From the NCBI GenBank assembly GCA_029265085.1, contig JAJUJY010000077.1, positions 1 to 19,752 of the forward strand: a stretch of DNA of 19,752 nucleotides. Direction: 5' to 3'. This DNA is from Chloroflexota bacterium. Lineage in GTDB: Bacteria; Chloroflexota; Anaerolineae; Anaerolineales; Anaerolineaceae. The notes below the pieces were generated by a model. That model did not search any database, had not been told where the DNA came from, and saw only the letters and a list, made by a program, of their open reading frames with translations. A program made the position numbers and the translations under genes. Below are positions 1 through 19,524 of the stretch, in pieces. Positions within the stretch are counted from its first letter, which is position 1; the number at the start of each line of letters is the position of its first letter.

Positions 1-118
1 GCCTGTACGCGTTTTCAGGGTCATAGTCGACTTCGAGTATCCTGATGTTTGGGTTTTTCAGGTTGGCCGCTACCCAGTCAGTCTCGCAGAGTACTTCAGG
101 ATGAGAATAGCTCACCAT
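1..118 (-). CDS. Rhodanese-type sulfurtransferase, N-terminus only (runs off left edge)
   Basis: An ATG at 118 opens a frame that stays open to the window edge, giving about 39 residues. The start, MVSYSHPEVLCETDWVAANL, followed by an N-x-N-I-R-I-L-E-V-D stretch, matches the N-terminus of thiosulfate/3-mercaptopyruvate sulfurtransferases, which usually begin with a 'Y-x-H-P-E-V-L-v-x-T-x-W-v-A' block. Rhodanese enzymes move a sulfane sulfur to a thiophilic acceptor; the active-site cysteine lies outside the window. The ATG overlaps the stop codon of the ABC ATPase upstream (TGA at 114-112), and there is no Shine-Dalgarno sequence before it. The gene looks as if it has been joined to the ATPase gene rather than having its own leader. 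The protein family is recognised from memory of its conserved start, so the call is moderately sure. Confidence 0.6.
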   Translation of the reverse strand, partial: MVSYSHPEVLCETDWVAANLKNPNIRILEVDYDPENAYR

Positions 119-130
119 ACAGTATCATCA
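112..130 (-). other. Probable breakpoint joining truncated wzt to the sulfurtransferase gene
   Basis: The Wzt reading frame loses its C-terminal domain exactly where a sulfurtransferase start codon begins: Trp-stop (TGGTGA) overlaps ATGGTG. No ribosome site, spacer or terminator separates the two unrelated genes. A frame stop (TGA at 127-125) lies just upstream of the sulfurtransferase ATG. The simplest reading is a deletion or recombination joint, or a false join in an assembly, located within about 20 bases upstream of 118. Confidence 0.5.
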
Positions 131-1023
131 TGAACAAAAGCCCGCACACGAACTTTTTCTCCTGCGAGGAAAGATAGTCCGGGCTCCCCATTTTCGCGAA
201 GCATTTTCACATCTTCGATCACGGCACTTTGACTCATCACCAGGTCAGATATGCCATTTGTGATGGAATTTCCCCGCTCATTTTGTTCTTGAGCGGCCTT
301 TCGCAAGATATTTGAATATTCAGCGGTCGCTTCGGTTACTGCGCCTTGATAAGCTGGTGTTCCACGATACATAACCAGGCAGCTGGTACAGACTCTTTGC
401 ACTGCGCGCATATTGTGAGAAACAAAAATTAAGGTTGTTCCGCGCTGAATCATTTCAACCATGCGTTCATAGCATTTTCGCTGAAAGGCCATGTCGCCTA
501 CAGCCAGGACTTCATCCACCAATAAAATTTCTGGGTCCATGTGGGCGGCTACCGAAAATCCCAACCGTGCGTACATACCCGATGAATAGCGTTTAACGGG
601 AGTGTCCAGGAACTTCTCGATTCCGGCAAACTCTACAATCTGATCAAAGCGTTGTTGGATCTCTGCTTTGCGCATCCCCAAAATTGTGCCGTTCAGAAAT
701 ATATTTTCTCGCCCGCTTAATTCCGGATGAAAACCTGCCCCTAACTCAATCAACGCAGAAAATCGTCCATTGAGATGGATTTTTCCACTGGTTGGGAAAG
801 TGACTTTCGAAAGCAATTTCAAGATAGTGGTTTTTCCTGCACCGTTTGGTCCGATGATTCCCAATGCTTCACCTGGGTTAAGCGCAAAACTGAGGTCTTT
901 GACTGCCCAGTGATAGCGCTCCTGCTCGGTGTTACGGCGCAGCCCGACCAATGAACGGAAACTCAACGGCGCCTGGCCGATGCGATAGCGTTTGGAAACC
1001 TGATCAAGTTCAATGGATGGCAT
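112..1023 (-). CDS. wzt: Polysaccharide export ABC transporter ATPase, Wzt type, C-terminally truncated
   Basis: This 303-residue protein is the nucleotide-binding subunit of an ABC-2 polysaccharide/teichoic-acid-type exporter. Visible elements are Walker A (GPNGAGKTT, 58-66), the signature loop (YSSGM, 146-150), Walker B followed by a D-loop (LLVDEVLAVGD, 167-177) and the H-loop His203 (VSHN). The ATPase domain ends near residue 240. A second domain then begins (about 260-303, 'ENGEP...F.AGEKVRVRAFV'). This resembles the first strands of the carbohydrate-binding C-terminal domain of Wzt proteins, which normally continues for over 100 more residues. Here it stops abruptly at a TGA that overlaps the start of an unrelated sulfurtransferase gene. 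The ATG at 1023 has an AGGA ribosome site that overlaps the stop of the permease gene upstream, so the two are translationally coupled. ATP hydrolysis should be intact, but glycan-terminus recognition by the C-domain is probably lost. Confidence 0.9.
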   Translation of the reverse strand: MPSIELDQVSKRYRIGQAPLSFRSLVGLRRNTEQERYHWAVKDLSFALNPGEALGIIGPNGAGKTTILKLLSKVTFPTSGKIHLNGRFSALIELGAGFHPELSGRENIFLNGTILGMRKAEIQQRFDQIVEFAGIEKFLDTPVKRYSSGMYARLGFSVAAHMDPEILLVDEVLAVGDMAFQRKCYERMVEMIQRGTTLIFVSHNMRAVQRVCTSCLVMYRGTPAYQGAVTEATAEYSNILRKAAQEQNERGNSITNGISDLVMSQSAVIEDVKMLRENGEPGLSFLAGEKVRVRAFVHDDTVW

Positions 1024-1031
1024 TGGTGATC

Positions 1032-1817
1032 CTATATAATATCTGCGAAACGGTATTCAACCCGCTTGAAAAACGTATATCCAACCAGCAGCACAACGGC
1101 CGAGATCAACGCGGAAATCCAGAACTCTGCGGTGACACTGCCGCCGTTCAAAATAACGGAGCGGTAGCTTTCAATAACTCCGGCCATTGGGTTTAGATAA
1201 TAAAATGGGCGCAATGATTCTGGCACCAGGCTGGAAGGGTAAATGATCGGAGTGGCATACAGCCATAGCTGCAAGCCTAATGCTGCCAGGTGTTTCACAT
1301 CCCGGTAAAAGGCGTTCAAAGCTGCAGCAAAGAAACCAATCCCCACAGCCAGGGAGATTTGTACAAGCAGAATGAGTGGTAAGAATGCCCAGGAGATTTG
1401 AAAAACTGGCAAATCGTAAAAAATCATCAGGAAGATTAACAGGCTGTAGGCGATCACAAAATCAATCAGACGCGCCAACATTGCTGCAATGACCAAAACT
1501 TCGCGCGGAAAATATATTTTTGCCACAAGGTTCATATTGCTGACAATCGAATCCACCATATCTGTAATGGATGTGGAGAATAACATCCAGGGAACCAGTG
1601 CGGAATATGCAAAAACGGCGTACGGAAAACCTTGGGTATCTACTTTGAGGAAAAGGGAAAAAACTGTGGTGAAGATGGCAACGGTAGCCACTGGCTGCAG
1701 GATTGCCCATAACCCCCCCAGGATGGATTGCTGGTAGCGTGCGCGAATAATGCGCATGGTCCAGGCATTTAGTAAATCGCGATGTGAAATTAATTCCTTG
1801 AGCGAACCATTTTCCAT
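1032..1817 (-). CDS. wzm: Polysaccharide export ABC-2 permease, Wzm type
   Basis: The integral membrane subunit that pairs with the adjacent ATPase to export a lipid-linked polysaccharide across the cytoplasmic membrane. It has 261 residues from the ATG at 1817. The N-terminal cytosolic segment (LKELISHRDLLNAWTMRIIRARY) and the following 'Q-S-I-L-G-G-L-W-A-I-L-Q-P' element are typical of the ABC-2 exporter family (Wzm/TagG/RfbA). About six hydrophobic segments follow, including ones near VAIFTTVFSLFL and IDFVIAYSLLIFLMIF. The family motif 'N-P-M-A-G-V-I-E-S-Y-R' lies near the C-terminus. A longer in-frame start at 1868 exists but would overlap the gene upstream. The start at 1817 sits 4 bases after that gene's stop and is preceded by a GAGA site, so it is preferred. 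Length and domain content are normal. Confidence 0.92.
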   Translation of the reverse strand: MENGSLKELISHRDLLNAWTMRIIRARYQQSILGGLWAILQPVATVAIFTTVFSLFLKVDTQGFPYAVFAYSALVPWMLFSTSITDMVDSIVSNMNLVAKIYFPREVLVIAAMLARLIDFVIAYSLLIFLMIFYDLPVFQISWAFLPLILLVQISLAVGIGFFAAALNAFYRDVKHLAALGLQLWLYATPIIYPSSLVPESLRPFYYLNPMAGVIESYRSVILNGGSVTAEFWISALISAVVLLVGYTFFKRVEYRFADII

Positions 1818-1821
1818 AGAA

Positions 1822-3291
1822 TTATCTCGGTAAATTATCTCGCCTGCTGAGCACAAGCAGCAGCCCAATCAGGATGGCTACCGGAGCCAGTCCGATAAAG
1901 ATTGGTGTTGCCGGGTTCATGATGGGTTGTGGCCGGGATGCAAAATCATTTTCGGCTGGAGGTGTTATATTGAGGTTGGTTGAAACACCAGGAGCCGCAT
2001 CTTCAATAGCGCGGGTAGAGATAGGTGTTGGCGATGGGAGCGGCACAACCGGCAATTCTGGCGCATCCAAATAGGCATAGGAATACCAGGCGCCGCTTAA
2101 ATCTTCCTTGCGCACGTTGTGCCACCAGGTAGCCAACAGGACATTCCCCTGGCTGATGATGGCTTGCGGTGCACTGGGGTCAAAGGTAGGGGTAATTGGC
2201 CCGGAAATGAGTGGTTCTAATGGAGCCCAGCCATCTCCCAGCCAACGGCTGTGCCACATGCCGTGAATTTCTGGCTCTGAGGTTCGATTTCCCAGGATCA
2301 TGTGAATGGTTCCGCTGCCATCTTTGAGTAAAATTGCGTTTTCATATTCACCGACTTGCGGAAACGGCCGGACGGGCAACTGCCATGTTTCTCCACCATC
2401 CTGTGAACGTACCATCCAGCGGGTGGCAGGGAAACTGTCTTGATAAATCACGATCAAGTCATCCCCATTGGTGATAATCGATGGCCATTGGGTGGAATAT
2501 TCCCCTTCCTCGCGGCGAGCCAGGACAATTTCATTGGTCCATTGATAGGTGGATGGGTCGGTGCGGGCATAGTGGACTTCGGTACCAACCCCTGTGTCAT
2601 TGACAATGCTCCAGACCATATGAATTTGGCCTGTGTCATCCCAGGTAAACCGGATGGAAGACGGCCACAAGTTTTCTTCATTGATGATATAGATTGGGCT
2701 GGGTTCAGACCAGGTATTTCCGCTGTCTTCAGAATGAACCTGATACAGACCAATGCCGTTGATTTGGCCGCTGTACACTATTAAAAGACGGCCATTCTCA
2801 TCTCCGGTTAAACCTGCAAAAGGCAGCGGCCCGCCGCCTTTGCCAACTGGAATAGGAACCGACCATGAGGTAGCGCGGTCTGCAATGGAGGCCAGAGCGC
2901 GCGAATACATAATGTCACCTTCTTTTTCTGCGCCGTTGTAATAAATCAGGTGTAATACGCCATTATTGTCCGCAAAGGCTCCTTGGATCGTGTTAATCCC
3001 ACTGCCTAAATCCGGCAGGATAATATCTACCCTTGGGGACCAACCGGTTTCAACACTCCATTTCCGGTAAACAATTGCGCTGCGAACTGGTGAGACGGCT
3101 TCATAACTAAATGCGTGAACGGTGCGATTGCGGTCTGCCGCCAGAAAAGGAGCGCGCGCCGTGTCATCATAATTGGGGATCTGGCGCGGCAAAGTCCACT
3201 GCTCAATGCCCTGGGCTGTTGCCGGAGTGAATAATCCTGCCATGAGCAGTGCAAGAAGGATGAAAAAATAAAAGAAATTTCTCAATTTCAT
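1822..3291 (-). CDS. Secreted, membrane-anchored Asp-box (BNR/sialidase-like) propeller protein
   Basis: The 489-residue protein starts with a clear signal peptide (hydrophobic run 5-20, cleavage near ATAQ 24-27). The body is rich in beta-propeller features. Two Asp-box motifs of the S-x-D-x-G-x-x-W form are visible (SEDSGNTW, 187-194; SQDGGETW, 296-303), and further degenerate blades contain 'G-x-x-H-x-x-W/Y' strands. A Pro/Thr/Ser linker (about 415-460) leads to a C-terminal transmembrane helix (about 463-484) and a short basic tail. The protein should sit on the outer face of the membrane. I do not see the catalytic Arg triad, Tyr and Glu of true sialidases, so the enzyme activity is unknown; glycan binding is equally possible. 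It precedes wzm by 4 bases and probably shares its transcript. The start ATG has no recognisable Shine-Dalgarno sequence. Confidence 0.8.
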   Translation of the reverse strand: MKLRNFFYFFILLALLMAGLFTPATAQGIEQWTLPRQIPNYDDTARAPFLAADRNRTVHAFSYEAVSPVRSAIVYRKWSVETGWSPRVDIILPDLGSGINTIQGAFADNNGVLHLIYYNGAEKEGDIMYSRALASIADRATSWSVPIPVGKGGGPLPFAGLTGDENGRLLIVYSGQINGIGLYQVHSEDSGNTWSEPSPIYIINEENLWPSSIRFTWDDTGQIHMVWSIVNDTGVGTEVHYARTDPSTYQWTNEIVLARREEGEYSTQWPSIITNGDDLIVIYQDSFPATRWMVRSQDGGETWQLPVRPFPQVGEYENAILLKDGSGTIHMILGNRTSEPEIHGMWHSRWLGDGWAPLEPLISGPITPTFDPSAPQAIISQGNVLLATWWHNVRKEDLSGAWYSYAYLDAPELPVVPLPSPTPISTRAIEDAAPGVSTNLNITPPAENDFASRPQPIMNPATPIFIGLAPVAILIGLLLVLSRRDNLPR

Positions 3292-3392
3292 ATAAGATAA
3301 TTATGATATAAATAGTGGACAAATTTCTTATAAAAACATAATAGTATTTCATCGATAGAAAATAGGCCGGGATGGCAAACAGGAGGATAGCA
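3292..3392. promoter_or_regulatory. Divergent AT-rich intergenic region with likely promoters
   Basis: This stretch separates two outward-facing genes and is very AT-rich, as expected for back-to-back promoters. On the plus strand a possible pair is TGGACA (3316-3321) and CATAAT (3337-3342), but the 15-base spacer is short, so the assignment is weak. No convincing -35/-10 pair is found on the minus strand. An AT-rich block ending directly at the minus-strand ATG leaves little room for a leader there. Confidence 0.35.
3381..3386 (+). promoter_or_regulatory. Strong ribosome binding site deciding the start at 3393
   Basis: AGGAGG lies 6 bases before the ATG at 3393 and downstream of an alternative in-frame ATG at 3372. 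It therefore selects 3393, which also places the lipoprotein signal peptide directly at the N-terminus. Confidence 0.85.
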
Positions 3393-4364
3393 ATGAATTG
3401 GAAAATATGGCTTGGCGGAATGGCTGCATTGGTTATACTGACAGCCTGCACACCCAAAAGTACACCTTCCGTTCTACTGCAGGCCACAGCGACACCTTTA
3501 CCCGCGGTTACGATCCAACCAACGCCTGCGATTCCTACAAAAACGCTGCCTCCTACTGAGGTTGCCACACTACCTGCTGCTACATCGACTGCTGAGCCTA
3601 CCCGGACATTGAACGAATCAACCCCAGCGGTTGATCAAATTGTCATCGACCATACCTCTTTGGTTTTGTTTGACCAGATTCCGGATGAGAAGATTGCTGA
3701 GGCTGCGAAAATCCGCCTTCTTTTCCGGCATGCCTCGGTTGGGGAAAATATCAATTTTGGATTGTCTTGCCTGTGGGGAAATTATGCAGGCCGGCGGCCA
3801 GGGGTTTGTAGTGATTTTTATAATCTGAAATATGACCGCAGTAATTGGGTATTTCAATTTCGCGGCAATCCAGGTTGGATTGAAAAGGTTGATGATTTTG
3901 TTGTGCAGACTGATTTGCAAGCAGAACAATTTGATGCTCTGACGTTCACCCTCGGTTATCTGGATGGGTTGGATGGAATGACCTACCCTACCATTTCTGA
4001 TGAAGAAAATTTCCAGAAACATTTTGTTGAACCGCTTGAAGCCCTGGAGGCAAGGCACCCCGATAAGATCTTTATTTATTGGACAATGTCTCTGGCGCGG
4101 CAAGGCCATGCCAACACGACAAAATTTAATGAGATGCTGCGCGGCTATGCCCGAGAACATGGGAAAATTTTGATCGATATTGCTGATATCGAATCGCATG
4201 ATCCGGACGGCAGCCTGGTTACTGACGCCAATGGAAATCCAATTATTTCAGATTTTTATACGGATGAAGTAAATGCCGGCCATTTAAATACCTTGGGGCG
4301 TGAAGTTATGGCAAAGGCATTTTGGGTGCTCATGGCGCGCGTTGCTGGTTGGGATGGCGAATAA
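3393..4364 (+). CDS. Lipoprotein with SGNH-hydrolase-like domain
   Basis: Starting at 3393 the protein has 323 residues. It opens with a lipoprotein signal peptide whose lipobox LTAC gives lipidated Cys19. A Thr/Pro-rich linker (about 25-75) follows, then a globular domain of about 220 residues. The domain begins with LLFRHASVGENINFG (H113, S115), resembling the 'H-x-S-V-G-x-N-I' nucleophile block of a divergent SGNH/GDSL esterase group. It ends with 'E-V-N-A-G-H-L-N-T-L-G-R', where His297 in a G-H-L-N-x-x-G setting would serve as the block-V catalytic His. Between them lie 'A-L-T-F-T-L-G-Y-L-D' and 'I-F-I-Y-W-T-M-S' strands of an alpha/beta fold. If active, it could remove or transfer O-acyl groups on a surface glycan. 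The family assignment rests on these two motifs and is moderate. It stands first in a two-lipoprotein unit. Confidence 0.65.
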   Translation: MNWKIWLGGMAALVILTACTPKSTPSVLLQATATPLPAVTIQPTPAIPTKTLPPTEVATLPAATSTAEPTRTLNESTPAVDQIVIDHTSLVLFDQIPDEKIAEAAKIRLLFRHASVGENINFGLSCLWGNYAGRRPGVCSDFYNLKYDRSNWVFQFRGNPGWIEKVDDFVVQTDLQAEQFDALTFTLGYLDGLDGMTYPTISDEENFQKHFVEPLEALEARHPDKIFIYWTMSLARQGHANTTKFNEMLRGYAREHGKILIDIADIESHDPDGSLVTDANGNPIISDFYTDEVNAGHLNTLGREVMAKAFWVLMARVAGWDGE

Positions 4365-4373
4365 TTATAAAGA

Positions 4374-4598
4374 GGTAAGTCCTTACAATTTTGTTAGGTG
4401 GTCAAAGAATCTGGATATCTGGTGTTTTTCGTACCGCAAAGAAAGGCAGTTGAACACCGATGAGGTGCTTCCCGGTGAAACCTGATATTTTTGTAAGTTG
4501 TTTGTCAGTCAGTCTCATGTTATTTATGGTATATCGCTAATTGTATTTAGCGTATTCTTATCCAATTAACCCTGAGTGGTATTGATAAAGGACTTACC
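4374..4598 (+). promoter_or_regulatory. Candidate structured leader (or MITE-like element) with 11-base inverted ends covering the next gene's ribosome site
   Basis: The 240-base gap between the two lipoprotein genes contains perfect 11-base inverted repeats, GGTAAGTCCTT (4374-4384) and AAGGACTTACC (4588-4598). The right arm contains AAGGA (4588-4592), the best ribosome site for the ATG at 4605. Other pairings compete. CTTACAA (4382-4388) matches TTGTAAG (4491-4497) over 7 pairs, GTAAGT (4493-4498) matches ACTTAC (4592-4597), and GTAA/TTAC can close a local hairpin at 4375-4386. Inside the 7-pair stem, GGTGTT (4421-4426) pairs with AACACC (4453-4458). A further perfect hairpin, CGCTAA/TTAGCG, lies at 4535-4552. 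I could not match the core to a known riboswitch class. The inverted ends with flanking GA dinucleotides on both sides would also fit a small non-autonomous mobile element. Confidence 0.45.
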
Positions 4599-4604
4599 GA
4601 CCTG

Positions 4605-7469: not shown

Positions 7470-8513
7470 TTATCCAAACACAGCTCGGTATACGCTGCGT
7501 CCGGGGATCCTTTCAACGGCGCTCATTAACCACCCTGGCAATACGAAGGTGATTGCTGCCAATACAATCGACAACAGGGACAGCCAGCCGAGTAAAAACG
7601 GCAGCCAGCTCTGGACGGCAAACAAAAGCAGGTTGATCACGACCAGGTTAGTCAGGTAAAGCCCATAAGATCGTTTGCCGAGATTCTCTAAAAATTTTAC
7701 GGCGGGGATCCGGTTGCGCGGAATGACTGGCGCAAGCAGGATGGCGGCCAAAGGGCAAAATACCTCTGCCAGGACTGCATTGACTGCCGTGAGTAGGTTG
7801 GCGGTGGCTAATCCGTATAGAACCAGGGTCACCAGGAGGGAAATCCAGGCATACCGTTTTAAAATAGGGGTTATTCTGGCAGCGTGGCATCCGTAGATAA
7901 TCCCCAGCGGATAAAACACACCCCAAACTGCGAATGGCAAAGCCAATACAGGTGGGGATAGGACCCGCACCCAACCTGGAAGCTCAAACGACAGTAGTTC
8001 TGGCTTGAGTACAACGATGTTGATGGCTTGAATGATGCCAAACACAACTATTACGAATCCCGGAAATTGCCTGGCTGCGCGAATCAGGATTGGGGCAATC
8101 AGGTAAAAGAAAACCAGGATCGGAACAAAGTTATACGGATATCCAACCAGTAAATTTTTGGCGTACCCAGCCAGGGAATATTGTTCTCCCCGGAGAAGGA
8201 ATACAACCCCATAATAGATTGCCGACCAGATCACATAGGGAACTAGAATGTGAAATACACTGTTCCAAACGATCCGGTAAGATGCCTTCAGGTCTTTTCC
8301 CTGCACCGCATAGACGAAGAAACTGCCTGCCAGAAAGAGGAAAATTGGAACAGCCAGAATGCCGACCTCTTTAACGGCCAACAGAATCACTTTTTCAATT
8401 TGCCCAAGATCAAATCCAGCCTGCCGGGCAGCCTGCAAGCCCAGCGTGATGGAGTGATTAACCACTACCAGGAAGATAGCAAATCCGCGCAGTGCAGGGA
8501 ATTGGCGGTTCAT
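7470..8513 (-). CDS. Membrane acyltransferase, family 3 (OafA/YrhL type)
   Basis: This 347-residue polytopic membrane protein transfers acyl groups (often acetyl or succinyl) to sugars of exported glycans. The N-terminus, FPALRGFAIFLVVVNHS, contains the family's R-x10-H motif (R9 to H20). About ten hydrophobic helices follow to the C-terminus, as usual for the transmembrane-only version without a periplasmic SGNH domain. The stop codon of the Sat-CysC gene upstream is separated from this ATG by a single base, so translation is almost certainly coupled. It is the last gene of the long minus-strand unit and is followed by the terminator at 7399-7443. The acyl donor and sugar acceptor cannot be read from the sequence. 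Interestingly, an SGNH-like lipoprotein, a possible partner activity, is encoded separately at 3393-4364. Confidence 0.88.
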   Translation of the reverse strand: MNRQFPALRGFAIFLVVVNHSITLGLQAARQAGFDLGQIEKVILLAVKEVGILAVPIFLFLAGSFFVYAVQGKDLKASYRIVWNSVFHILVPYVIWSAIYYGVVFLLRGEQYSLAGYAKNLLVGYPYNFVPILVFFYLIAPILIRAARQFPGFVIVVFGIIQAINIVVLKPELLSFELPGWVRVLSPPVLALPFAVWGVFYPLGIIYGCHAARITPILKRYAWISLLVTLVLYGLATANLLTAVNAVLAEVFCPLAAILLAPVIPRNRIPAVKFLENLGKRSYGLYLTNLVVINLLLFAVQSWLPFLLGWLSLLSIVLAAITFVLPGWLMSAVERIPGRSVYRAVFG

Positions 8514-8514: not shown

Positions 8515-10296
<1,782 letters not shown>

Positions 10297-10321: not shown

Positions 10322-11308
10322 TTAAACAGTAAGTGGAGCCGTGCGCAGATAATCAGTTGTGCGCTGTTTCCGTTGGATATCCTGAATGACTCGTTCTACC
10401 TGAGCTGGTGTGAGATCCAAGGCGGCGGCAATGTTTTCTGTGGAAATCTTTTGTTCGTGACCGAGCCAAATCAGATCCAACACCTCGAACGGCAGGCGAA
10501 AGAAAAATTCTTCTTGTGTGCTGCCGGCACTGTAGGTGTCTGAGGTGGGGGTGCGTTCTTGGATTTCTTTGGGTATGTTGAGATAAGCGGCCAGTTGGTA
10601 CACCTGGCTCTTGAAAAGGTGGGTAATAGGATGAACATCCACCCCGCCGTCACCATGTTTGACAAAGAAACCCAGGTCATGTTCGTTTTTATTAGCCGTG
10701 CCGATCACCGCATAATTGCGTAATTCAGCATGATAGTAGAGCATAGCCATACGGGTTCGTTGTTTAAAATTGGAAGCCGCCATGATTTGAAAGAATTCAG
10801 ACGGGGGAATCCGTTTGCGGATTTCTTGCCCCTCTGGACTAACCGCAGTTAAGGAAAAAACATTGAGGGTATCTTCTTCTAAGAGGCTGCCGGGTAAGGT
10901 GATTTTGGATTTCCATCCGCTGGTGAATTCCGGAATAACCCGCCGGACAGCTTCATCTCGGCGGGCATAACACCCGGCCCCTTCTAATGCTCCGCTGATA
11001 TCCTCAATGATGGTATTCACCCCCAGGGATGCAGCCAGTTCCAATGCCAGGCGAGTGCTGTCCGGGCTGGATTCTTTTTCTGGCAGCAGTACCCCAATGA
11101 CTCGTTGCGGCCCAAGAGCAAGGACCGATAAAGCCAGCACGACTGAGGAATCAATCCCGCCGCTGATACCGATGATGGCACCGCGCCGGTGTAAATTTTG
11201 CAGAACAGCATTTCGCAGCATCTGCGAAATGCGATCCACTTCCACTGCCGAATCCAGGGTCAATGCCTGGCGGCTAAAAATGTTTGATGTTGGGGGAGAA
11301 CCATTCAT
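10322..11308 (-). CDS. NadE-like ATP-dependent amide synthetase (variant NAD synthase family)
   Basis: A member of the N-type ATP pyrophosphatase/NAD synthase family, 328 residues from the ATG at 11308. A TTG five codons upstream is possible, but a GGAG site 9 bases before the ATG favours 11308. Visible family motifs are the PP-loop SGGIDSS (49-55), N-F-K-Q-R-x-R-M, GTANKNE (203-209) and KHGDGGVD (217-224). Canonical NadE enzymes adenylate the carboxylate of nicotinate adenine dinucleotide and amidate it with ammonia. This protein differs: it carries about 60 additional residues between the PP-loop half and the N-F-K-Q-R motif. Where housekeeping enzymes have a 'S-A-D-L-W-x-G-Q-T-D-E' type segment, it reads TSDTYSAGSTQEEFFF (about 255-270). 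I recall such variants from surface-polysaccharide clusters. It lies 20 bases after asnB, so amidation of another substrate is plausible. There is no N-terminal glutaminase domain. Confidence 0.8.
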   Translation of the reverse strand: MNGSPPTSNIFSRQALTLDSAVEVDRISQMLRNAVLQNLHRRGAIIGISGGIDSSVVLALSVLALGPQRVIGVLLPEKESSPDSTRLALELAASLGVNTIIEDISGALEGAGCYARRDEAVRRVIPEFTSGWKSKITLPGSLLEEDTLNVFSLTAVSPEGQEIRKRIPPSEFFQIMAASNFKQRTRMAMLYYHAELRNYAVIGTANKNEHDLGFFVKHGDGGVDVHPITHLFKSQVYQLAAYLNIPKEIQERTPTSDTYSAGSTQEEFFFRLPFEVLDLIWLGHEQKISTENIAAALDLTPAQVERVIQDIQRKQRTTDYLRTAPLTV

Positions 11309-11328
11309 CAGATCCGGCTCCAATAATT

Positions 11329-13293
11329 TTAATAAACTTGTTCTGTGATCCGCAGAGGGGCAGTGGTACTGGTGGTAACTGCATGGTTCCGCTGAACGTA
11401 CATCTGGTGAAGCAGCTGCGTGGAAAGGATACCCACCAGAGCCATTTCTTCCACCTCGCTCAACTCATTTTCTGAACGAGCTTTTTGTACCAGTTTGCCA
11501 ACTGCCACCGGATTGAAATATCCGCTGGTCTGCAAGGCTTGAGTCGAAAGCAGTTCTAAAACGTATTCCGGGGCGTTATCGGAGAAGAAACTGCGCTGAA
11601 TTGGTGCGCGGTAGGGGCGTTTGGTACGTTTCCAGATTTCCGGGGGTAAGATCTTCTTGCCAAATTGGCGCAAGAGGTATTTTTCACTCAGTCCGCGCAG
11701 TTTTAAGTCGGCTGGCAGGCGGTTGCAAAATTCCACCACCCGGAAATCCAGGAATGGGAAACGTCCTTCCACCGAATGTGCCATAGCCGGGCGGTCGCCT
11801 TGTGATGAAAGTAAATAGGGCGACATAAAGGTGGTAATTTCGAGGTATTGCGCCTTAGCCAGGGGAGACCAATCCTTAAATTTTTCTGGAAGATGCAGCA
11901 GATTGTTTTCTGTGGTGGGTAATTCCGGCGGGGTGCCGTTGCGCCCTGCGAAGAATCGCAAGGTACGGGCTGTATTTGACCAGCGAATCGAGTGAGAATA
12001 ATACGGTGATCCGGTGTTGAGCAAATCTCGGGCAAAGAAGGCGGATAAGAATCCGCCTGATTGAGAAAGGCGGGGAATATCTGGATAAATCTTCTTATAC
12101 AATAATGGGCGTAATTCTGATTCCGGATGGCGGGCTACAAACCGGCGAATTTTCATTTCTTTGAAAATGTCGTATCCGCCTAATATTTCATCTGCACCTT
12201 CGCCGGTCAGGACGACCTTGTAGTTGTTGCGGTGAACCAGATCGGAGAGCAAAAACATTGGCGCGGGCGAGGTGCGTAAAATGGGAATTTCGGTGTGCCA
12301 GATTACTTCCGGAAAAACGCGTCCAATATCCTCAGGACGGCACTCCACAACCTGGTGGTGTGTACCAAGGAATTGCGCCATCTGAACCTGAAATTCACTT
12401 TCGTTAAACTGCGGTGTGGAAAATGCGATCGAAAAAGTATCCAGGTTGGCATTGCTGTAATTGCGGATGATTGCAGCGGTGGTTGATGAATCCAGGCCGC
12501 CGCTCAAGTACGCGCCGACAGGAACATCGGCACGCAGGCGAATCTGGGCTGCATCCACCAAAAGGCTGCTGAACTCTTCTACATAGGCTTCGTCGGATTT
12601 GCGTTGGGTGTCTTCGGTAAAATCCAAAGACCAGTAAGGGCGAACCTGGATTGCACCATCTTTTAATAACAAATAATGGGCTGGGGGAACTTCCTGCACG
12701 CCCTGGAAAATCGAACGTGGAGAAAGCGGGCTCCAGTAAGTGAAGATTTGCTCCAGTGCCGCAGGATCAATCACTGGATTCCAGCCGGGTAAAGCCAGGA
12801 AAGATTTGATTTCCGATGCAAAAGCAAGCTGCCCCTGGTGTTCGGTATAAAAAATTGGGCGAATACCTAAGCGGTCGCGGGCTAAGAGCAGACTGCGTTG
12901 GCGGGTATCCCAAATGGCAATAGCAAATTGGCCGTTAAGATGGTTAAGACAATCGGGGCCATACTCTTCGTATAGGTGAAGAATCACCTCGGTGTCAGAT
13001 TGGGTGGCAAACTGGTGGCCTTTCGCTTCCAAAGCGGGGCGCAGCTCAATGTAATTAAATATTTCACCGTTAAAAACGATCCGTAATGACCCGTCTTCGT
13101 TGGTCATGGGCTGCTGCCCGCCGGATAAGTCGATGATGCTCAGTCTTGCGGAGGCTAAGCCAGCGGTTGTGTCGCGGTAAATGCCAAATTCATCCGGGCC
13201 GCGGTGGTGCAAGGCCAGGATCATGCGCTGCAAAGTTTCCAGCGCAGGCGAATGTTTCGAATGGAGATTAATTAATCCGGCGATACCGCACAT
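11329..13293 (-). CDS. asnB: AsnB-type glutamine-dependent amidotransferase
   Basis: A 654-residue class II (Ntn) amidotransferase of the asparagine synthetase B family. Cys2, exposed after Met removal (MCGIAGL), is the glutaminase nucleophile. RGPDEFG (about 31-37), FNGEIFNY and the 'S-D-T-E-V-I-L' block complete the glutaminase domain. The synthetase domain has the PP-loop SGGLDSS (264-270) and GEGADEILGGY. Such enzymes release ammonia from glutamine, adenylate a carboxylate and form an amide. Aspartate is the housekeeping substrate, but many glycan-cluster homologues act on other carboxylates. The ATG at 13293 lies 3 bases after the stop of the acyl ligase, with GAGGTG as ribosome site inside that gene's end, so the two are coupled. 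A NadE-like amide synthetase follows at once. Domain content and length are normal. Confidence 0.92.
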   Translation of the reverse strand: MCGIAGLINLHSKHSPALETLQRMILALHHRGPDEFGIYRDTTAGLASARLSIIDLSGGQQPMTNEDGSLRIVFNGEIFNYIELRPALEAKGHQFATQSDTEVILHLYEEYGPDCLNHLNGQFAIAIWDTRQRSLLLARDRLGIRPIFYTEHQGQLAFASEIKSFLALPGWNPVIDPAALEQIFTYWSPLSPRSIFQGVQEVPPAHYLLLKDGAIQVRPYWSLDFTEDTQRKSDEAYVEEFSSLLVDAAQIRLRADVPVGAYLSGGLDSSTTAAIIRNYSNANLDTFSIAFSTPQFNESEFQVQMAQFLGTHHQVVECRPEDIGRVFPEVIWHTEIPILRTSPAPMFLLSDLVHRNNYKVVLTGEGADEILGGYDIFKEMKIRRFVARHPESELRPLLYKKIYPDIPRLSQSGGFLSAFFARDLLNTGSPYYSHSIRWSNTARTLRFFAGRNGTPPELPTTENNLLHLPEKFKDWSPLAKAQYLEITTFMSPYLLSSQGDRPAMAHSVEGRFPFLDFRVVEFCNRLPADLKLRGLSEKYLLRQFGKKILPPEIWKRTKRPYRAPIQRSFFSDNAPEYVLELLSTQALQTSGYFNPVAVGKLVQKARSENELSEVEEMALVGILSTQLLHQMYVQRNHAVTTSTTAPLRITEQVY

Positions 13294-13296
13294 AGT

Positions 13297-14832
13297 TCAC
13301 CTCAAATCTGTTTTTTTAATTTTGCCGGACGTGGTTTTTGGCAGTTCAGCACAAAATTCCACGAATTTTGGAACCATAAAATCTTCCAGATTGGCTTTGC
13401 AATGGCGAAAGATATCATTCTCGGTCAGGTCGTTCCCGTTTTGGACGACAAATACTTTAATTGCCTGCCCTAGCACAGGGTCCGGTACGCCGATGACGGC
13501 TGCTTCTAAAACGCCGGGCAAGCGGTAGAGCACATTTTCCACTTCTTTGGGAGAAACTTTTTCACCACGGCTCTTGATGATATCGTCTTTGCGGGCGACA
13601 AAATAGAAATAACCTTCTGCATCTGTGCGGAATAAATCGCCAGAATAACATAAGCGTTCACCAGGGATTGGCCCCGTACGGAACCGCCGGGCGGACATTT
13701 CTGGGTCGCCCCAATAGCCGCGCATTACGTGCCTGCCGCGTACTACCAGTTCACCGGTTTCGCCCGGTTCCAGGCGCTGTCCCTGTTCATTCTCCAGCCA
13801 GACCTCGGTACCCGGTATAGCAATTCCCACTGAATCGGGTCGGCGTTCGAGTTGGTCTGGCGGCAGGTAAAGAGTACGCTTGGTTTCGGTTAATCCATAC
13901 ATAGAAAAGAGCGTGACCCAGGGGAATTTCTCCCGGATTTGCAGAATGTGCGCCGGGGGTAGGGCAGCCGCTGTATTGGTCATGTAGCGCAGGCTGGAAA
14001 GATCATATGCAGACAAATCCATATTGACCAGTACGGAATAAATTGTTGGTACACCGGGGAAACCGGTAACCTTTTCAGCCTGGATTTTTTCCAAAATGAC
14101 CGCGGGATACGTAAAGCCTTTTTCCAGCACCAGCCGTCCGGAAAAACTAAAGGTCATCAGTAGCTGGTACAGCCCATAATCAAATGAGAGCGGCAGCATG
14201 TTGATAACCACATCATCCTGTGTGTTTTGTAGATAGGTCGTGATCGATCCAACAGCAAAAACTACATTGCTGTGATCGGACATAACCCCTTTGGGTTCGC
14301 CTGTGCTGCCGGAGGTGTAAATCAGGCAGGCAAGATCAAGGTCGATGTTGGCTGGTTTGGGACGTGCTGGCAGCCCGGCTGCTAGAAATTCCGTAAAGCG
14401 GAAGAGCCTGGAAGATGCCTCTATCGTTCCTGATCCTGTAATTAAGCCAAACTTCAACGAGGGCAGTTCGTTCAGGAGCGTCTCAGCCACATTTTGCTGA
14501 GCTGACCAGGTGACCAGTGCGCTGGCCTGGCAGTTATTGGCGATATAGGCCAGTTTATCTGCCTTGGTGGTGTGGTTTACCACTACAAAAACGCCCCCTG
14601 CTTTTAATATTCCAAAAAGCGCAATGACCAGTTCAACCGAGTTCGGTAAATACAATATCACCCGTTGCCCGCGTTGAATACCGTGAGCGGCGAGTTGATT
14701 TGCTAATTGGTTCGCCTGGGTTTCGATTTGGCTATAGGTCAGCCGCTGTTGATCGCATACCAGGGCGACCTTCTCCGGAAATTGATCTGCGCTGTTTTCG
14801 AGAAATTGCTGTACAAGACGGGCGGGGGGCAT
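13297..14832 (-). CDS. AMP-forming acyl/amino-acyl ligase (ANL superfamily)
   Basis: A 511-residue adenylating enzyme. Core motifs are the A3 phosphate loop YTSGSTGEPKG (172-182), MYGLTET (A5), YSGDLFRTDAEGYFYFVARKDDIIKSRG split over the A7-A8 hinge, and the C-terminal catalytic Lys504 in T-T-S-G-K-I-K-K. It should activate a carboxylic acid as the acyl-AMP and load it on a thiol. Because the neighbouring upstream gene is a stand-alone acyl carrier protein 21 bases away, the ACP phosphopantetheine is the likely acceptor. Substrate cannot be read with confidence. Ligase, ACP and AsnB-like amidotransferase neighbours also occur in exosortase-linked EPS loci of Gram-negative bacteria (from memory), but I see no exosortase here. 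The start ATG at 14832 is preceded by AGGA at 8 bases. Confidence 0.9.
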   Translation of the reverse strand: MPPARLVQQFLENSADQFPEKVALVCDQQRLTYSQIETQANQLANQLAAHGIQRGQRVILYLPNSVELVIALFGILKAGGVFVVVNHTTKADKLAYIANNCQASALVTWSAQQNVAETLLNELPSLKFGLITGSGTIEASSRLFRFTEFLAAGLPARPKPANIDLDLACLIYTSGSTGEPKGVMSDHSNVVFAVGSITTYLQNTQDDVVINMLPLSFDYGLYQLLMTFSFSGRLVLEKGFTYPAVILEKIQAEKVTGFPGVPTIYSVLVNMDLSAYDLSSLRYMTNTAAALPPAHILQIREKFPWVTLFSMYGLTETKRTLYLPPDQLERRPDSVGIAIPGTEVWLENEQGQRLEPGETGELVVRGRHVMRGYWGDPEMSARRFRTGPIPGERLCYSGDLFRTDAEGYFYFVARKDDIIKSRGEKVSPKEVENVLYRLPGVLEAAVIGVPDPVLGQAIKVFVVQNGNDLTENDIFRHCKANLEDFMVPKFVEFCAELPKTTSGKIKKTDLR

Positions 14833-14853
14833 AAATTTTTCCTGGATATCGAA

Positions 14854-15111
14854 TTAATGAGAACCGTTTTGTTTGCGGCGGACAAACCCGGCCAGATTGC
14901 TGACCGAATCGAAATTTGACGGGACGATCTCACTGTCTGCAATATCGATCCCATAAGTTTCCTCAACATATGAAACCAGTTCCATGACATTCATCGAATC
15001 GACGATGCCATTTTCTAGAAAAGAGGTCTCATTGGAGTATGGATACCCATTATTGCTGTAAAGAATATTTTCCGAAATATATTTGCGAACGTTCTCTTCT
15101 ATACTGCCCAT
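14854..15111 (-). CDS. Acyl carrier protein
   Basis: An 85-residue phosphopantetheine-binding protein. Helix I starts at IEENVRKYI. The attachment site is Ser39 in GIVDSMNVMELV, the family's D-S-L/M motif, followed by helix II and 'EETYGIDIADSEI', typical of ACPs. The ATG at 15111 is chosen because GGAGG (15124-15120) lies 8 bases upstream; a longer frame upstream of it would overlap the preceding gene and adds non-ACP sequence. The protein precedes an AMP-forming ligase by 21 bases, making an activate-and-carry pair. It is unlikely to be the housekeeping fatty-acid ACP, since no fab genes adjoin it and the sequence around the Ser is DSM rather than DSLD. Confidence 0.9.
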   Translation of the reverse strand: MGSIEENVRKYISENILYSNNGYPYSNETSFLENGIVDSMNVMELVSYVEETYGIDIADSEIVPSNFDSVSNLAGFVRRKQNGSH

Positions 15112-15142: not shown

Positions 15143-17842
15143 CTAATCCAGGTTCGATTTCTTGACCACTTTGCTGTACACAAAAGTTCCTGTGGTTAAA
15201 GCGACAGCCAGAAATACGCCAACGACAATGCCAACTACAGGACTGCTGTTTGAACCGTTGCGGGTGCGGTTGAAATTTGCTGCGATCGCGGTTGGGGTGA
15301 GTTCCGGCTGCGGGGTGGCTAAAGTCTGGCTGGCTGTGGGGGTGTTGGTTGGAAGAACAGCCGGGCTGGATTCCGGTATGCTGACCTGCGGAACATCTAT
15401 CTGTAAAGCAGTGAAGGAAATTTGGGTTTGATCACCCTGATCGGTGCTGGAAGCTGCCTTGCTGGTGAATGCGGCCAGCATTTTTCCAGTAGGGTCAATG
15501 GCTACAGATAAAACGCCCAGGTCTTTTATCGAGCTTACGGCCGACATGATTTCAGGCCCAGATTCCCAGCGCGCTCCATTTCCAACCAGATAATCAATCT
15601 TCACTTTGCTTCCCCGTTGTTGGCTGGCCTGCAAAAGGTGTAATTGTCCAGCCCGGTCGATGGTTAAAGCAGTTTCTCCAACTTCCCCTTCCAGAGCAAT
15701 AAATTTGTTTGGCTGTGACCAGGTAAGGCCGCCGTCTTGAGAGATTGAGGTAAATAAACTGGTTTCACCTGGTTGAACTTCTTTCCAAAAGCGATGTACG
15801 GTTTGTCCACCATATGCGATTACTTGATTCCAAATGGTTGGTTGAGCACTGATTTGTTCTGGCGCGTCCCAGGTTATTCCGGCATCGATCGAGCGCAGTC
15901 CGTAGAGCGTTAACGAACCTGCCCCGCCAGGCAGGGTGGCGCAAGTCCAAAGGATGTTGATGGTCTGGCTGCCGTTGATTGCGATCGAGGGGTTTTCAAC
16001 CATTGGGCAATTAAGGGTTGTGCCGTCCAGAATCTTTTCGGCCTCTGTCCAGCTTGTGCCGCCATCTTGTGATTTTGTCAGATACAGCCCCCGATTTTCG
16101 TTCAATGGGATGCCATATAACGCATACAGGGTCCCATCGGTGCTCAGTACCATGACTGGTGACAATCCGGGGGTGTTTTCAGGCTGGATGGTTTTTGGCT
16201 CAATCCAATTCGACCGGTTGCCTGCCTGTTCTGGTGAGGTATAGCTGGAATAAATTTGCCCCAGTTCACCTGCCTGCCAAAGGGCAACCAAGCGATTGGT
16301 TGAGGGTTGTACAGCGGCTGCGAGCTGATCGGGAATCCCTAATTTAGCAGTGATTATGGGGTAGGGGCCGGAAAAAGAACTGCCTTTCCAGAATGCGTAA
16401 CTTATCCCATTTTCAGAAACAATAGCATTCGGTCCTTTTAATTCCGACCAAAGCACATGCAGGCCGTCCTGCATGTCTGGTTGAATTACTAAGGAAGTAA
16501 CCGTTAGATCGCCAAGATTGGTCGTGAGGGGAGCGCTCCAGGCTGCCTTCGGCATGAACCAATCGGTTAATGAGTCAACTTCCCGGCTAACTGCCCAGAT
16601 ATCGCCGCCGCGTCCTGTATCGCAGCCAATGATCAGGAGCTGTTTGCCGTTGAATATAGGTTGGTAACAGCGGAATTCGACAACATTTAATGTGTTGGGA
16701 TCAAAAAATCCGTCCAACGCATTTTGATTTTGGATATCACTCCAGATTTCGCCGTTCCAGGCCTGTAAAAATGGCTGGCCCTGGATATTGGCAAATAAGA
16801 AAGAGGTTTTTGAGTCGACTGAATAGAAATGGATATCTTGCGGACAGGTATTGAATTCTTGCCAGAGATTACCGTTTGCCTGAAACGTATCTCCTCCATC
16901 CTGGGAGGAGCGGTACCTTTGAATGCAGCTCCCACCTACTGGATCGGTAGATTGCCAGAGGAAAACAACATTACTGCCGTTTGCATGGATGATTAATTTC
17001 TTCGGTGTCTGGTATGCAGAGGATGAATTTGGACCATCTACCTGGGTTGTTTCGCTCCAATTCCCTCCTTCATCCACCGAGCGGGTGTAATAGATGCGCT
17101 TAAGGGCAGGATTTTCCCAGGCAATGAAAATCCAATTGTTCTCCTCTACCAGTGTGGCTTCAACATCAATGCTGACATCGAAGTTGGCTGCCATGCTTCG
17201 CGCTGCACTTTGATCGGGTGGGGGAATGAGCGTGCGAAAATAACGAGACTGGTCGATTAGACGTGGAAAAGACCACCCCGATGTGCCTGGATAGGTACGA
17301 ATGTAATAAACCCCGGCAGGAAAATCATTGGTATCCAAGGCGCGAATATAGCCCAGGTGTAACTGCCCTTTGGAATCCAGGCGCACATCGTATGCGACAA
17401 CCGAAACAGCCAGGCGAACCGGTGCAGCCCATTGATCCATGCTTGATATCAAATTTGCCGGAACGCTCGAATAATAAAAATCATATTCGTCATCAATCCA
17501 GAATGCATAGATCAGCCCATCTGGAGTTGCGATCAGGCGGTATTTTAAACCACTAAATGGCAAATCGAGGTTAACAGGCGTTTCCCAGGTTGTGCCATCC
17601 CCCTGGGTATGGACAATACCTGCATAGGCATCCTGCCAAAACACGTGATAGGTCTGGTTGAAATCCAATACGACATTGGGTTGGCTGGTAGCTCCGGAAT
17701 TCGACAAATTAATGGGTGTTCCCCATTCACTTGAACCGGTTTGTGCTTGCACGTTCGCTGGATAACTTGAACCCAACAGGACCATTACCAGGATAAGCGC
17801 CTGCAGAATTGCTTTTGATGATGACAGGGTTTTATGTTTCAA
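15143..17842 (-). CDS. Large secreted Asp-box (BNR) repeat protein with C-terminal membrane anchor
   Basis: About 899 residues. A signal peptide (basic KHK, hydrophobic 11-24, cleavage near VQAQ) is followed by a long beta-propeller-rich body and a Thr/Pro-rich stalk (about 825-862). A C-terminal transmembrane helix and a basic tail (KVVKK) finish it. Asp-box motifs include SVDEGGNW (255-262) and SQDGGDTF (313-320, Phe for Trp); further S-x-D-x-G-x-x-W boxes occur at SQDGGTSW, SIDAGITW and SQDGGLTW. With so many boxes it may contain two propellers. No sialidase active-site set is evident. The start is not ATG: the best candidate is TTG at 17842, with CTG at 17854 as an alternative, since no in-frame ATG precedes the signal peptide. 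It shares its overall plan with the protein at 1822-3291 and is co-transcribed with ACP (31-base gap). Its role is unknown; sensing or binding an extracellular glycan is one possibility. Confidence 0.8.
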   Translation of the reverse strand: MKHKTLSSSKAILQALILVMVLLGSSYPANVQAQTGSSEWGTPINLSNSGATSQPNVVLDFNQTYHVFWQDAYAGIVHTQGDGTTWETPVNLDLPFSGLKYRLIATPDGLIYAFWIDDEYDFYYSSVPANLISSMDQWAAPVRLAVSVVAYDVRLDSKGQLHLGYIRALDTNDFPAGVYYIRTYPGTSGWSFPRLIDQSRYFRTLIPPPDQSAARSMAANFDVSIDVEATLVEENNWIFIAWENPALKRIYYTRSVDEGGNWSETTQVDGPNSSSAYQTPKKLIIHANGSNVVFLWQSTDPVGGSCIQRYRSSQDGGDTFQANGNLWQEFNTCPQDIHFYSVDSKTSFLFANIQGQPFLQAWNGEIWSDIQNQNALDGFFDPNTLNVVEFRCYQPIFNGKQLLIIGCDTGRGGDIWAVSREVDSLTDWFMPKAAWSAPLTTNLGDLTVTSLVIQPDMQDGLHVLWSELKGPNAIVSENGISYAFWKGSSFSGPYPIITAKLGIPDQLAAAVQPSTNRLVALWQAGELGQIYSSYTSPEQAGNRSNWIEPKTIQPENTPGLSPVMVLSTDGTLYALYGIPLNENRGLYLTKSQDGGTSWTEAEKILDGTTLNCPMVENPSIAINGSQTINILWTCATLPGGAGSLTLYGLRSIDAGITWDAPEQISAQPTIWNQVIAYGGQTVHRFWKEVQPGETSLFTSISQDGGLTWSQPNKFIALEGEVGETALTIDRAGQLHLLQASQQRGSKVKIDYLVGNGARWESGPEIMSAVSSIKDLGVLSVAIDPTGKMLAAFTSKAASSTDQGDQTQISFTALQIDVPQVSIPESSPAVLPTNTPTASQTLATPQPELTPTAIAANFNRTRNGSNSSPVVGIVVGVFLAVALTTGTFVYSKVVKKSNLD

Positions 17843-17871: not shown

Positions 17872-19524
17872 TTACGATTCGGCTTTCTTTGATTGCCAGC
17901 TCAGGTGCTGTAAGCCAACGCTGAGCGCTGACTTCATTGTGGAGAAATCAGAGAATAGCATTTTGAGATAGGTCAAAATGGGTCCAGGCCGTAAAGCCCA
18001 TTCTCGCCAGGCTCGTTTTTGCCAGTAGAGCAGCCGTTCGGCTGGTAAGCCGGGGTAATCCAATACCGTACCTTTATCCATGTCCACCTGTTCCCAACGT
18101 GTGCCTGGACGGAACCAGCCCTCACGGACAACTTCAAAGAAGAAGGGTGTGCCGGGGTAGGGTGCAGCTACGTGGAAAAGGGCAATATCCAGCGGTAAGG
18201 ATTTGGAGAATTGAATGGTTTGCTGGATCGATTCTTCCGTTTCAGTTGGCAGCCCGATAATGAAGTAGCCCCAGTTTTTAATTCCGGCTTTCTTAGCCCA
18301 GGTCAACGCCCGTACTGCCTGTTCCGGGTAAACACCTTTGCGGGCATGCCGCAGCACCTGTTCACTGCCGGACTCCAGTCCCCAGGTCATAAACCAACAG
18401 CCGGCTTTAGCCATCAGCTGCAATTCTTCTTCATCCACATAATCAACCCGGCTGTTGCAGGTCCATTTCATGTTGATGCCGGATTCGATCATTAACTTGC
18501 ACAGATTCACTACCTGCTCACGGTTTGCTGTGAACAAATCGGCATACATATTGACATTGTTAATGCCTAATTTCTTTAAGACCCACAATTCTTCTAGAAT
18601 TTTCTCGGGAGAACGCAGGCGCACACTGTATTGGTAGCTGACATGCTTGATACAGTAAATACAGCCCGCGGTGCATCCTCGGCTGGTGACAATGAAGGTA
18701 AAGGGTCCCTTGATGAGCGGCATCCGGTATTTGTCAAAAGGCAGCATTTCATGAGCCGGAATTGGTAAATCATCCAGGCTGCTGATAAACGGCCGGGGAA
18801 GGTTAACCACGATTTCACTGCCGTTGCGCCATGCCAGACCTTTAATACCACGCAAATCAGCGCTGCCGTCTTCCTTTAGTGAAGGGCGATAGGTTGGATC
18901 GTGATTGTCAAACATTTTTTGAACCGTCGGTGGCCGGTCGTTGGTTTTGCCTTCCAGGTGATCGATCAAATCTCGGATCGTTAAGTCGGGTTCACCCACC
19001 AGACCAAAATCCAGTGATGGGTATGGACGCATTGTCTCAACCGGAATTGGGGTGATATGCGTACCAAATGCAATAGTCGTGGCTCCTCGTGCCTTAGCCA
19101 GAAAACAACCATACAGGTCATTTTCCAGCGTAGGTGCGGTGAGTTGGGTCATGTAATACTTCGGCTGATATTTACTGATTTGATCCGCGAATTCTTTCCA
19201 GTTCATTCGTTCAGCATTGGCATCAATGATCTTGACGGTATAGGTTGGCATCAAAATTGCCGCCATCTGTGCTAGAGAAACTTGCGGCCAGACCATGTTC
19301 TCGCGTGTGCGGCGGCCAACCCGGTGCTGGGTGCGAATCCATAAACCACCGTCGGGGGTGGGGGGATTAACCAATAACACATCCACTGCATCGGGTGAAC
19401 GACGATTTTTCATAACGCCTTCGCGGACAATGGCATCCGCGTTGGGAAAATTCGCCATTTTCAAACTTGCCAACCGGTGGGCGCCGAGATTTTTAAATTT
19501 TAAGGTATCTGGATTTTCGCTCAT
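17872..19524 (-). CDS. Radical SAM protein with B12-binding-type N-domain
   Basis: A 550-residue enzyme. Residues about 45-195 form a cobalamin-binding-like Rossmann domain (VDVLLVNPPTP, 'Y-T-V-K-I-I-D-A-N', 'F-G-L-V-G-E-P-D'). The radical SAM core starts at about 275 with the cluster motif C-x3-C-x2-C (CTAGCIYC; Cys284, 288, 291), followed by 'M-T-W-G-L-E-S-G-S-E' and 'I-K-N-W-G-Y-F-I-I-G-L-P-T-E-T', both usual in this family. The N-domain lacks a clear D-x-H-x-x-G, so base-off cobalamin binding is uncertain. These enzymes methylate or rearrange unreactive carbons of lipids, sugars and peptides; the substrate here is unknown. The ATG at 19524 has AGAGGA upstream. It lies 30 bases after the gene upstream and 29 bases before the next, consistent with one operon. 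Confidence 0.88.
   Translation of the reverse strand: MSENPDTLKFKNLGAHRLASLKMANFPNADAIVREGVMKNRRSPDAVDVLLVNPPTPDGGLWIRTQHRVGRRTRENMVWPQVSLAQMAAILMPTYTVKIIDANAERMNWKEFADQISKYQPKYYMTQLTAPTLENDLYGCFLAKARGATTIAFGTHITPIPVETMRPYPSLDFGLVGEPDLTIRDLIDHLEGKTNDRPPTVQKMFDNHDPTYRPSLKEDGSADLRGIKGLAWRNGSEIVVNLPRPFISSLDDLPIPAHEMLPFDKYRMPLIKGPFTFIVTSRGCTAGCIYCIKHVSYQYSVRLRSPEKILEELWVLKKLGINNVNMYADLFTANREQVVNLCKLMIESGINMKWTCNSRVDYVDEEELQLMAKAGCWFMTWGLESGSEQVLRHARKGVYPEQAVRALTWAKKAGIKNWGYFIIGLPTETEESIQQTIQFSKSLPLDIALFHVAAPYPGTPFFFEVVREGWFRPGTRWEQVDMDKGTVLDYPGLPAERLLYWQKRAWREWALRPGPILTYLKMLFSDFSTMKSALSVGLQHLSWQSKKAES

Follow-up and report, generated by a model that had tools for sequence, protein, structure and literature searches.

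What do a stand-alone acyl carrier protein (ACP), an AMP-forming (amino)acyl ligase, an AsnB-family glutamine amidotransferase, and an NAD-synthetase-like (NadE-like) enzyme make when their genes are packed side by side? The question is raised by contig JAJUJY010000077.1 of a Chloroflexota bacterium (19,752 nt, analyzed as a whole and hereafter called the window), which carries this four-gene cassette on the minus strand at positions 10322–15111. The genes are transcribed in the order ACP, ligase, AsnB, NadE-like with intergenic gaps of 21, 3, and 5 bases, which bears out the tight spacing of 3–21 bases described in a first-pass annotation of this DNA, and the Pfam and NCBIfam assignments agree with the four names given there. 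The ACP gene begins with ATG, and a GGAGG ribosome-binding site lies just upstream; promoter and terminator scans gave signals at or below chance level, and no tRNA gene was found in the window. The four genes are a conserved accessory module, which we interpret, with a probability of about 0.5, as a portable “activate, carry, amidate” unit that would supply an amidated (amino)acyl-ACP to varied acceptors, often surface glycans.

Co-occurrence and Distribution

The first-pass annotation had proposed a gene-neighborhood search as a check, and the four families do occur together beyond the window. The search covered plasmid loci and the best 80 of at least 571 relatives in GTDB representative genomes, and its counts describe the closest relatives; the scoring profiles were built from the window and the plasmid loci and may miss distant partners. 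When a locus is counted as complete if the NadE-like gene has its three partners within 7 kb, the complete set was present in 48 of the 80 genome loci and in 32 of the 44 that had full flanks (at least 6 kb on each side). Of the 48 complete loci, 45 have the whole set on a single strand, and asnB and nadE are neighbors 50 times, at a median gap of 10 bases. Complete sets span nine phyla (Chloroflexota, Cyanobacteriota, Acidobacteriota, Bacteroidota, Ignavibacteriota, Calditrichota, Planctomycetota, Myxococcota, and Pseudomonadota).

A tblastn search of plasmids with the NadE-like protein returned 116 records at E ≤ 1e-40, mostly from Sinorhizobium, Azospirillum, Ensifer, Shinella, and Mesorhizobium. 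The four genes lie side by side in all five annotated plasmid regions inspected (L001, L002, L004, L005, and L006), in the orders asnB-acp-lig-nadE and acp-lig-asnB-nadE, and pSymB of Sinorhizobium meliloti 1021 (L003, an unannotated record) also has all four, which makes six of six plasmid loci complete. Cassette copies are carried by S. meliloti 1021 and by Shinella zoogloeoides.

A matched control compared the surroundings of the canonical nadE in 20 cassette genomes (flanks of about 8.5 kb, shortened in L093 by a contig end) with up to 10 kb on each side of the cassette in the same genomes. AsnB, ligase, and ACP were found near the canonical nadE in none of the 20, whereas at the cassette loci AsnB was present 20 times, ACP and ligase 18 times each, and the full set 16 times. 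Five of the 25 genomes that were searched for a second NAD synthetase had been excluded beforehand: G005, G006, and G025 for a weak canonical match, G023 because its canonical gene is close to the end of a contig, and G017 because its gene of the cassette type (L065) is partnerless; if G017 is counted, the cassette side reads 20, 18, 18, and 16 of 21. The proteins also diverge together, as Mantel tests on pairwise protein distances gave r values of 0.45–0.78, and for each of the six pairs 0 of 999 permutations were as high. The correlation was strongest for nadE and asnB (r = 0.78, 68 loci) and weakest for nadE and the ligase (r = 0.45, 66 loci). Because of the matched control and the Mantel tests, the cassette is more than a chance neighborhood. 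Phyla mostly cluster in the tree of NadE-like proteins, where the window falls in a four-row set with three Chloroflexota (support 98/96). Rows from Cyanobacteriota and Acidobacteriota lie among the Chloroflexota, which suggests, without proving, transfer of the cassette between phyla.

Carrier Protein, Ligase, and Amidating Enzymes

The NadE-like protein passes NCBIfam model NF002048 (452 bits; cut-off 313) and has the NAD synthetase fold with the ATP-pyrophosphatase motif, whose SGG-D is kept in 89 of 89 aligned sequences; according to Pfam, it has no glutaminase domain of its own. It shares its fold and catalytic motifs with NH3-dependent NAD synthetase and the nicotinamide mononucleotide (NMN) synthetase 3fiu, but it has about 54 extra residues relative to 2e18 (CYxRRD region) and an altered C-terminal region (QEEFFF..LPFEVLD), and it is a paralogue of a canonical copy. 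A second NAD synthetase was found in addition to it in all 25 genomes searched, although in G005, G006, and G025 this other protein is a weaker match (83–102 bits; frame length 670–708 codons). Scores over the NF002048 cut-off occurred in only 3 of 61 Chloroflexota genomes, one of which is the chosen center, with scores above 430 bits where the rest reach no more than 104, and in 1 of 14 control genomes. The cassette-type NadE is an accessory gene. A general homologue search returned at least 8000 candidates, a figure that is no measure of abundance, and a comparison with viral models yielded a single match under E = 0.001, to a tRNA-lysidine synthetase-type protein. Two short contigs (L033 and L056) each carry two NadE-like genes with ACP and ligase and no AsnB, as if one NadE-like copy stood in for AsnB. 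The accessible part of a study of Azospirillum NadE and PII treats glutamine-dependent enzymes as well as a set of putatively ammonia-dependent ones, with no mention there of the cassette (PMC7196632).

The AsnB of the window scores 524 bits with TIGR01536 (cut-off 267). The N-terminal Cys is present in 67 of 68 aligned relatives, the remaining one having a gap, and the synthetase motifs SGG-D and E are kept in 68 of 68; the protein, having both features, is a glutamine amidotransferase of this family. Its second-best NCBIfam match is the exosortase-associated TIGR03108, with scores of 451 bits for the window, 443 for L001, and 429 for L073, all under the cut-off of 817. The first-pass annotation had presupposed that neither amidating enzyme is a genome's only housekeeping copy. 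This holds for the NadE-like protein in 25 of 25 genomes, but it fails for AsnB in 3 of 8 genomes searched (G001, G002, and G015), where the cassette AsnB is the sole match over the TIGR01536 cut-off. Because it is the sole such copy there, it may make asparagine in these three genomes. The cassette AsnB of G021 reaches only 130 bits with TIGR01536. Two asparagine synthetase genes have been reported in a conserved exopolysaccharide cluster of Zoogloea resiniphila and Aquincola tertiaricarbonis, with the cassette unmentioned in the accessible part of that article on Shinella floc (PMC9012009). The asnO gene of S. meliloti, needed for FixT activity, was considered as a possible cassette AsnB and set aside: the accessible part of PMC7078487 ties asnO to N-acetylglutaminylglutamine synthesis, and we claim no link.

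The phosphopantetheine-bearing Ser is kept in 68 of 68 aligned cassette carriers. Four of the five PDB sequence matches of the window ACP are peptidyl carrier proteins (PCPs), including PltL, and the DltC model scores it at 22 bits, below the cut-off of 68. The best NCBIfam match of the window ligase is TIGR03098 (479 bits, under the cut-off of 592), and other cassette ligases score 458 (L001), 433 (L047), and 300 bits (L055). Aligned by eye to the GrsA code, the pocket of the window ligase reads D-Y-Y-P-T-T-M-R-T-K. Position 235, the amino-group position, is occupied among 69 cassette ligases by Asp in 35 (the window ligase included), Cys in 24, Gly in 3, and Ser, Ile, or Lys in 7. One locus (L042:6474-7916) has its ligase broken across three frames, through gene decay or faulty assembly, beside whole ACP, AsnB, and NadE genes.

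Neighboring Genes

Table 1. Cassette genes and neighboring features of the window.
Feature	Position	Strand	Evidence
ACP/PCP, stand-alone carrier, 85 aa, DS phosphopantetheine motif	14854..15111	-	PF00550, 27 bits
AMP-forming (amino)acyl ligase, 511 aa	13297..14832	-	PF00501 and PF13193
AsnB-family glutamine amidotransferase, 654 aa	11329..13293	-	GATase_7 and Asn_synthase
NadE-like amide synthetase, 333 aa (putative)	10322..11323	-	NAD_synthase, PF02540
Bifunctional ATP sulfurylase/adenosine phosphosulfate (APS) kinase	8515..10287	-	NF004040, 865 bits (cut-off 669)
Acyltransferase-3 membrane protein	7470..8513	-	PF01757, 83.5 bits
BNR-repeat protein, 899 aa, upstream of ACP	15143..17842	-	PF13088, BNR_2
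Radical SAM protein	17872..19524	-	PF04055; HpnJ 198 bits, below cut-off of 578
Wzm-like ABC exporter permease	1032..1868	-	Open reading frame; named by inspection only
Wzt-like ABC exporter ATPase	112..1023	-	Open reading frame with Walker and signature motifs; named by inspection only

The Wzm/Wzt-like, O-acylation, and phosphoadenosine phosphosulfate (PAPS) synthesis genes that had been reported near the cassette are present in the window, the first pair by inspection and the others by family match (Table 1). The acyltransferase-3 cluster occurs in 10 loci including the window and follows NadE immediately (−3 to 49 bases) in seven of them; in the window this protein is probably the end-user of the carrier-bound group. 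Gene maps were available for 84 loci, the choice of overlapping frames having left L025, L068, and L070 unmapped. Of these 84, 24 have a transferase of one of five types (acyltransferase-3, MBOAT, condensation-thioesterase, GNAT, and FemAB) no more than 6 kb away. By type, MBOAT proteins occur in 6 of 87 loci and within 6 kb of NadE in five; proteins of a condensation-PCP-thioesterase (C-PCP-TE) type lie within 6 kb in five loci, GNAT or FemAB in four, and SGNH-like proteins and sulfotransferases in three each. A low-confidence structure model of the SGNH-like protein (pLDDT 62.9, 3 sequences) matched rhamnogalacturonan acetylesterase (E = 6e-5), TesA (3e-4), and PatB (0.012), which gives only a hint that this neighbor is an SGNH protein. 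The C-PCP-TE protein resembles a nonribosomal peptide synthetase (NRPS) without an adenylation domain and stands beside the cassette in L010, L015, L028, L035, and L038; its domains were seen by Pfam in L038 and by profile similarity in the other four. Wzc-type genes lie within 6 kb in 15 mapped loci and group 1 glycosyltransferases (GT-group-1) in 14.

The PAPS-making ATP sulfurylase/APS kinase is placed between NadE and the acyltransferase, with no clustered relative in the other 86 loci. Sulfotransferase-type genes occur near the cassette in L019, L034, and L053 (by profile match) and at 7.7 kb in L022. Because a PAPS-making enzyme and sulfotransferase-type genes lie near cassettes, these gene assignments suggest sulfated glycans.

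Several other neighbors recur. The BNR-repeat family has 88 matches including the window protein, from Chloroflexota where the organism is given, and its cluster adjoins or lies near the cassette in L007, L009, and L011 as well. The radical SAM protein, distantly HpnJ/BchE-like, recurs in L011, L013, and L037; Wzm-like relatives occur in L007 and L011, and the Wzt-like protein falls in cluster c12. On the plus strand of the window, at 3372–7379, a lipoprotein-like gene and a 924-aa PQQ-repeat gene form a pair that is kept in L007, L008, and L011. L011 has nearly the gene order of the whole window without the sulfurylase: radical SAM, BNR, ACP, ligase, AsnB, NadE, and acyltransferase-3, then the PQQ/lipoprotein pair on the other strand, BNR, Wzm-like, and Wzt-like. 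Class-III aminotransferases occur in L040 and L058, and a glutamine synthetase lies within the set in L041. PrmC/HemK-like methyltransferases are found in nine loci at any distance (L001, L002, L030, L035, L038, L059, L068, L075, and L080), and within 6 kb in seven. PrmC methylates a glutamine amide, and this neighbor might methylate the cassette-made amide.

Proposed Function

For the substrates, the order of steps, the acceptor, and the product, we infer the following scheme. The ligase would adenylate a small carboxylic or amino acid and load it onto the phosphopantetheine of the ACP. AsnB would then use glutamine nitrogen to convert a free carboxylate into a primary amide, and the NadE-like enzyme, as an ATP-pyrophosphatase with a remodelled acceptor region, may form a second amide or the amide on that building block in another form. 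Once complete, the acyl-ACP would be passed to a lineage-dependent transferase, possibly acyltransferase-3 in the window and in further Chloroflexota, MBOAT with an SGNH-like protein in some Bacteroidota, GNAT or FemAB in rhizobia and others, and the NRPS-like C-PCP-TE protein elsewhere. The acceptor in the window is probably an exported surface glycan, possibly sulfated. Since the neighboring transferases vary, donor supply to different acceptors is the likeliest role, and the simplest reading is a donor-supply unit whose common denominator is the ACP with two amidating enzymes, the ligase and the transferase being exchangeable. A more specific version can be put forward only tentatively: the NadE descendant may be a dedicated amide synthetase that acts with AsnB on a carrier- or nucleotide-bound acid, and the product may be a (bis-)amidated acyl group that serves across many phyla as an interchangeable donor to glycans, lipids, and peptides, which would make this a widespread, undescribed pathway.

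Several observations weigh against this scheme. The 32 incomplete genome loci comprise 20 with less than 6 kb on one or both sides and 12 with full flanks (12 of 44), and the NadE-like gene occurs without AsnB in L028, L048, L049, and L054, as well as on the short contigs L033 and L056. None of the partners is present in L036, L065, and L067. Because loci can thus be incomplete or partnerless, the four genes are separable and not an inseparable set; at least one member lies on the opposite strand in L063, L070, and L071. Part of the correlation in the Mantel tests stems from common ancestry. In 60 of the 84 mapped loci, no transferase of the five types lies within 6 kb, and acyltransferase-3 proteins often use acetyl-CoA, in which case the neighbor in the window would be unrelated. 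Since the ligase pockets split into at least four classes, one common substrate for all cassettes is doubtful. The first-pass annotation had proposed an amide-bearing group for a surface glycan or lipid; glycan genes near many loci agree with this, but few lie beside the rhizobial cassettes L001–L003.

Comparison With Known Systems

One close relationship is with the exosortase A (XrtA/PEP-CTERM) exopolysaccharide locus, to whose ligase (TIGR03098) and AsnB (TIGR03108) the window proteins are related and with which the glycan setting is common. The partners in the XrtA locus are a pyridoxal phosphate-dependent decarboxylase and hydrolases, whereas the cassette has a NadE-like partner and both of its related proteins score below the curated cut-offs. 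Of 25 cassette genomes, 9 gave an exosortase match and the other 16 had none. The match in G021 is some 3 kb away from the cassette NadE, and a weak one in G018 is about 13 kb off. The scores and these 16 genomes uphold the earlier description of the cassette as resembling, without being, the exosortase set. The Dlt system (DltA ligase, DltC carrier, DltB MBOAT, and DltD SGNH) likewise combines a free ligase with a stand-alone carrier, and MBOAT and SGNH-like proteins stand beside the cassette in L059, L075, and L080. In contrast to Dlt, the cassette has two amidating enzymes, the window has acyltransferase-3 in place of MBOAT, and its carrier falls short of the DltC cut-off. By sequence, the cassette ligase matches the L-prolyl ligase 6o6e and the carrier matches PltL, as in PltF/PltL-type pairs of a free adenylation domain and PCP. 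The Plt partner is an oxidase, whereas the cassette has amidating partners.

Uronamide amidotransferases of the WbpS/WbqG type (PGN_1234 of P. gingivalis) are AsnB-family enzymes in a surface-sugar setting like that of the cassette, and they make or are required for sugar uronamides; in contrast to the cassette, the accessible part of the source mentions no partner of the ligase, ACP, or NadE kind for them (PMC7468200). A literature search with limited coverage of subscription journals found no description of the four-gene set. The ligase and AsnB can be regarded as cousins of the exosortase-associated pair, and there is a real chance that the cassette is a new pathway.

Alternative Explanations

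The most concrete rival, although unlikely in our estimate, is a uronamide/aminoacyl-sugar route modelled on the Wbp/Vim linking sugar (2-N-seryl, 3-N-acetylglucuronamide). AsnB, acting like WbpS, and possibly the NadE-like enzyme would amidate nucleotide-linked uronic acids, while the ligase and ACP would provide an aminoacyl group that GNAT or FemAB puts on a de-N-acetylated amino sugar. NadE, which normally acts on a dinucleotide carboxylate, would be suited to this task. Deletion showed that WbpS makes the uronamide, and the accessible text places WbpS and WbqG in TIGR03108 (PMC7468200), the family that gives the window AsnB its 451 bits; that score, however, is under the cut-off. Polysaccharide deacetylase matches occur in 5 of 87 loci and FemAB-type matches in 4, the two together only in L053, and the rhizobial copies have no adjacent glycan cluster.

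The stand-alone rhizobial operons speak for a unit that makes a free small metabolite, such as a peptide-like amide, instead of a glycan decoration, as does the C-PCP-TE-type protein adjoining five cassettes. We consider this outcome unlikely too, as surface-glycan genes lie near many loci, the window included.

It is rather improbable that the operon couples nitrogen or redox supply to the ligase and ACP, with the NadE-like protein acting as a genuine NAD (or NMN) synthetase and AsnB as a genuine asparagine synthetase: the second NAD synthetase in every genome searched, the patchy distribution in Chloroflexota, and the extra residues and altered C-terminus all argue against this reading. Least probable is that AsnB serves mainly as a glutaminase feeding ammonia to the NadE-like enzyme for a single amidation, its synthetase site being idle or used elsewhere. 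In its favor, no other pair is adjacent so often or correlates so well, and the NadE-like enzyme lacks a glutaminase domain; against it stand the invariant AsnB synthetase motifs and several loci that have the NadE-like gene but no AsnB.

Implications

The five annotated plasmid records inspected label the cassette proteins as NAD(+) synthase, asparagine synthase, AMP-binding or class I adenylate-forming protein, and acyl carrier protein, and because of such annotations a shared pathway is masked by housekeeping labels. NAD biosynthesis should not be assumed without a test for “NadE” genes of the NF002048 type. Should its product be an amidated acyl donor, the module would account for a hitherto unexplained building block of bacterial surfaces or metabolites.

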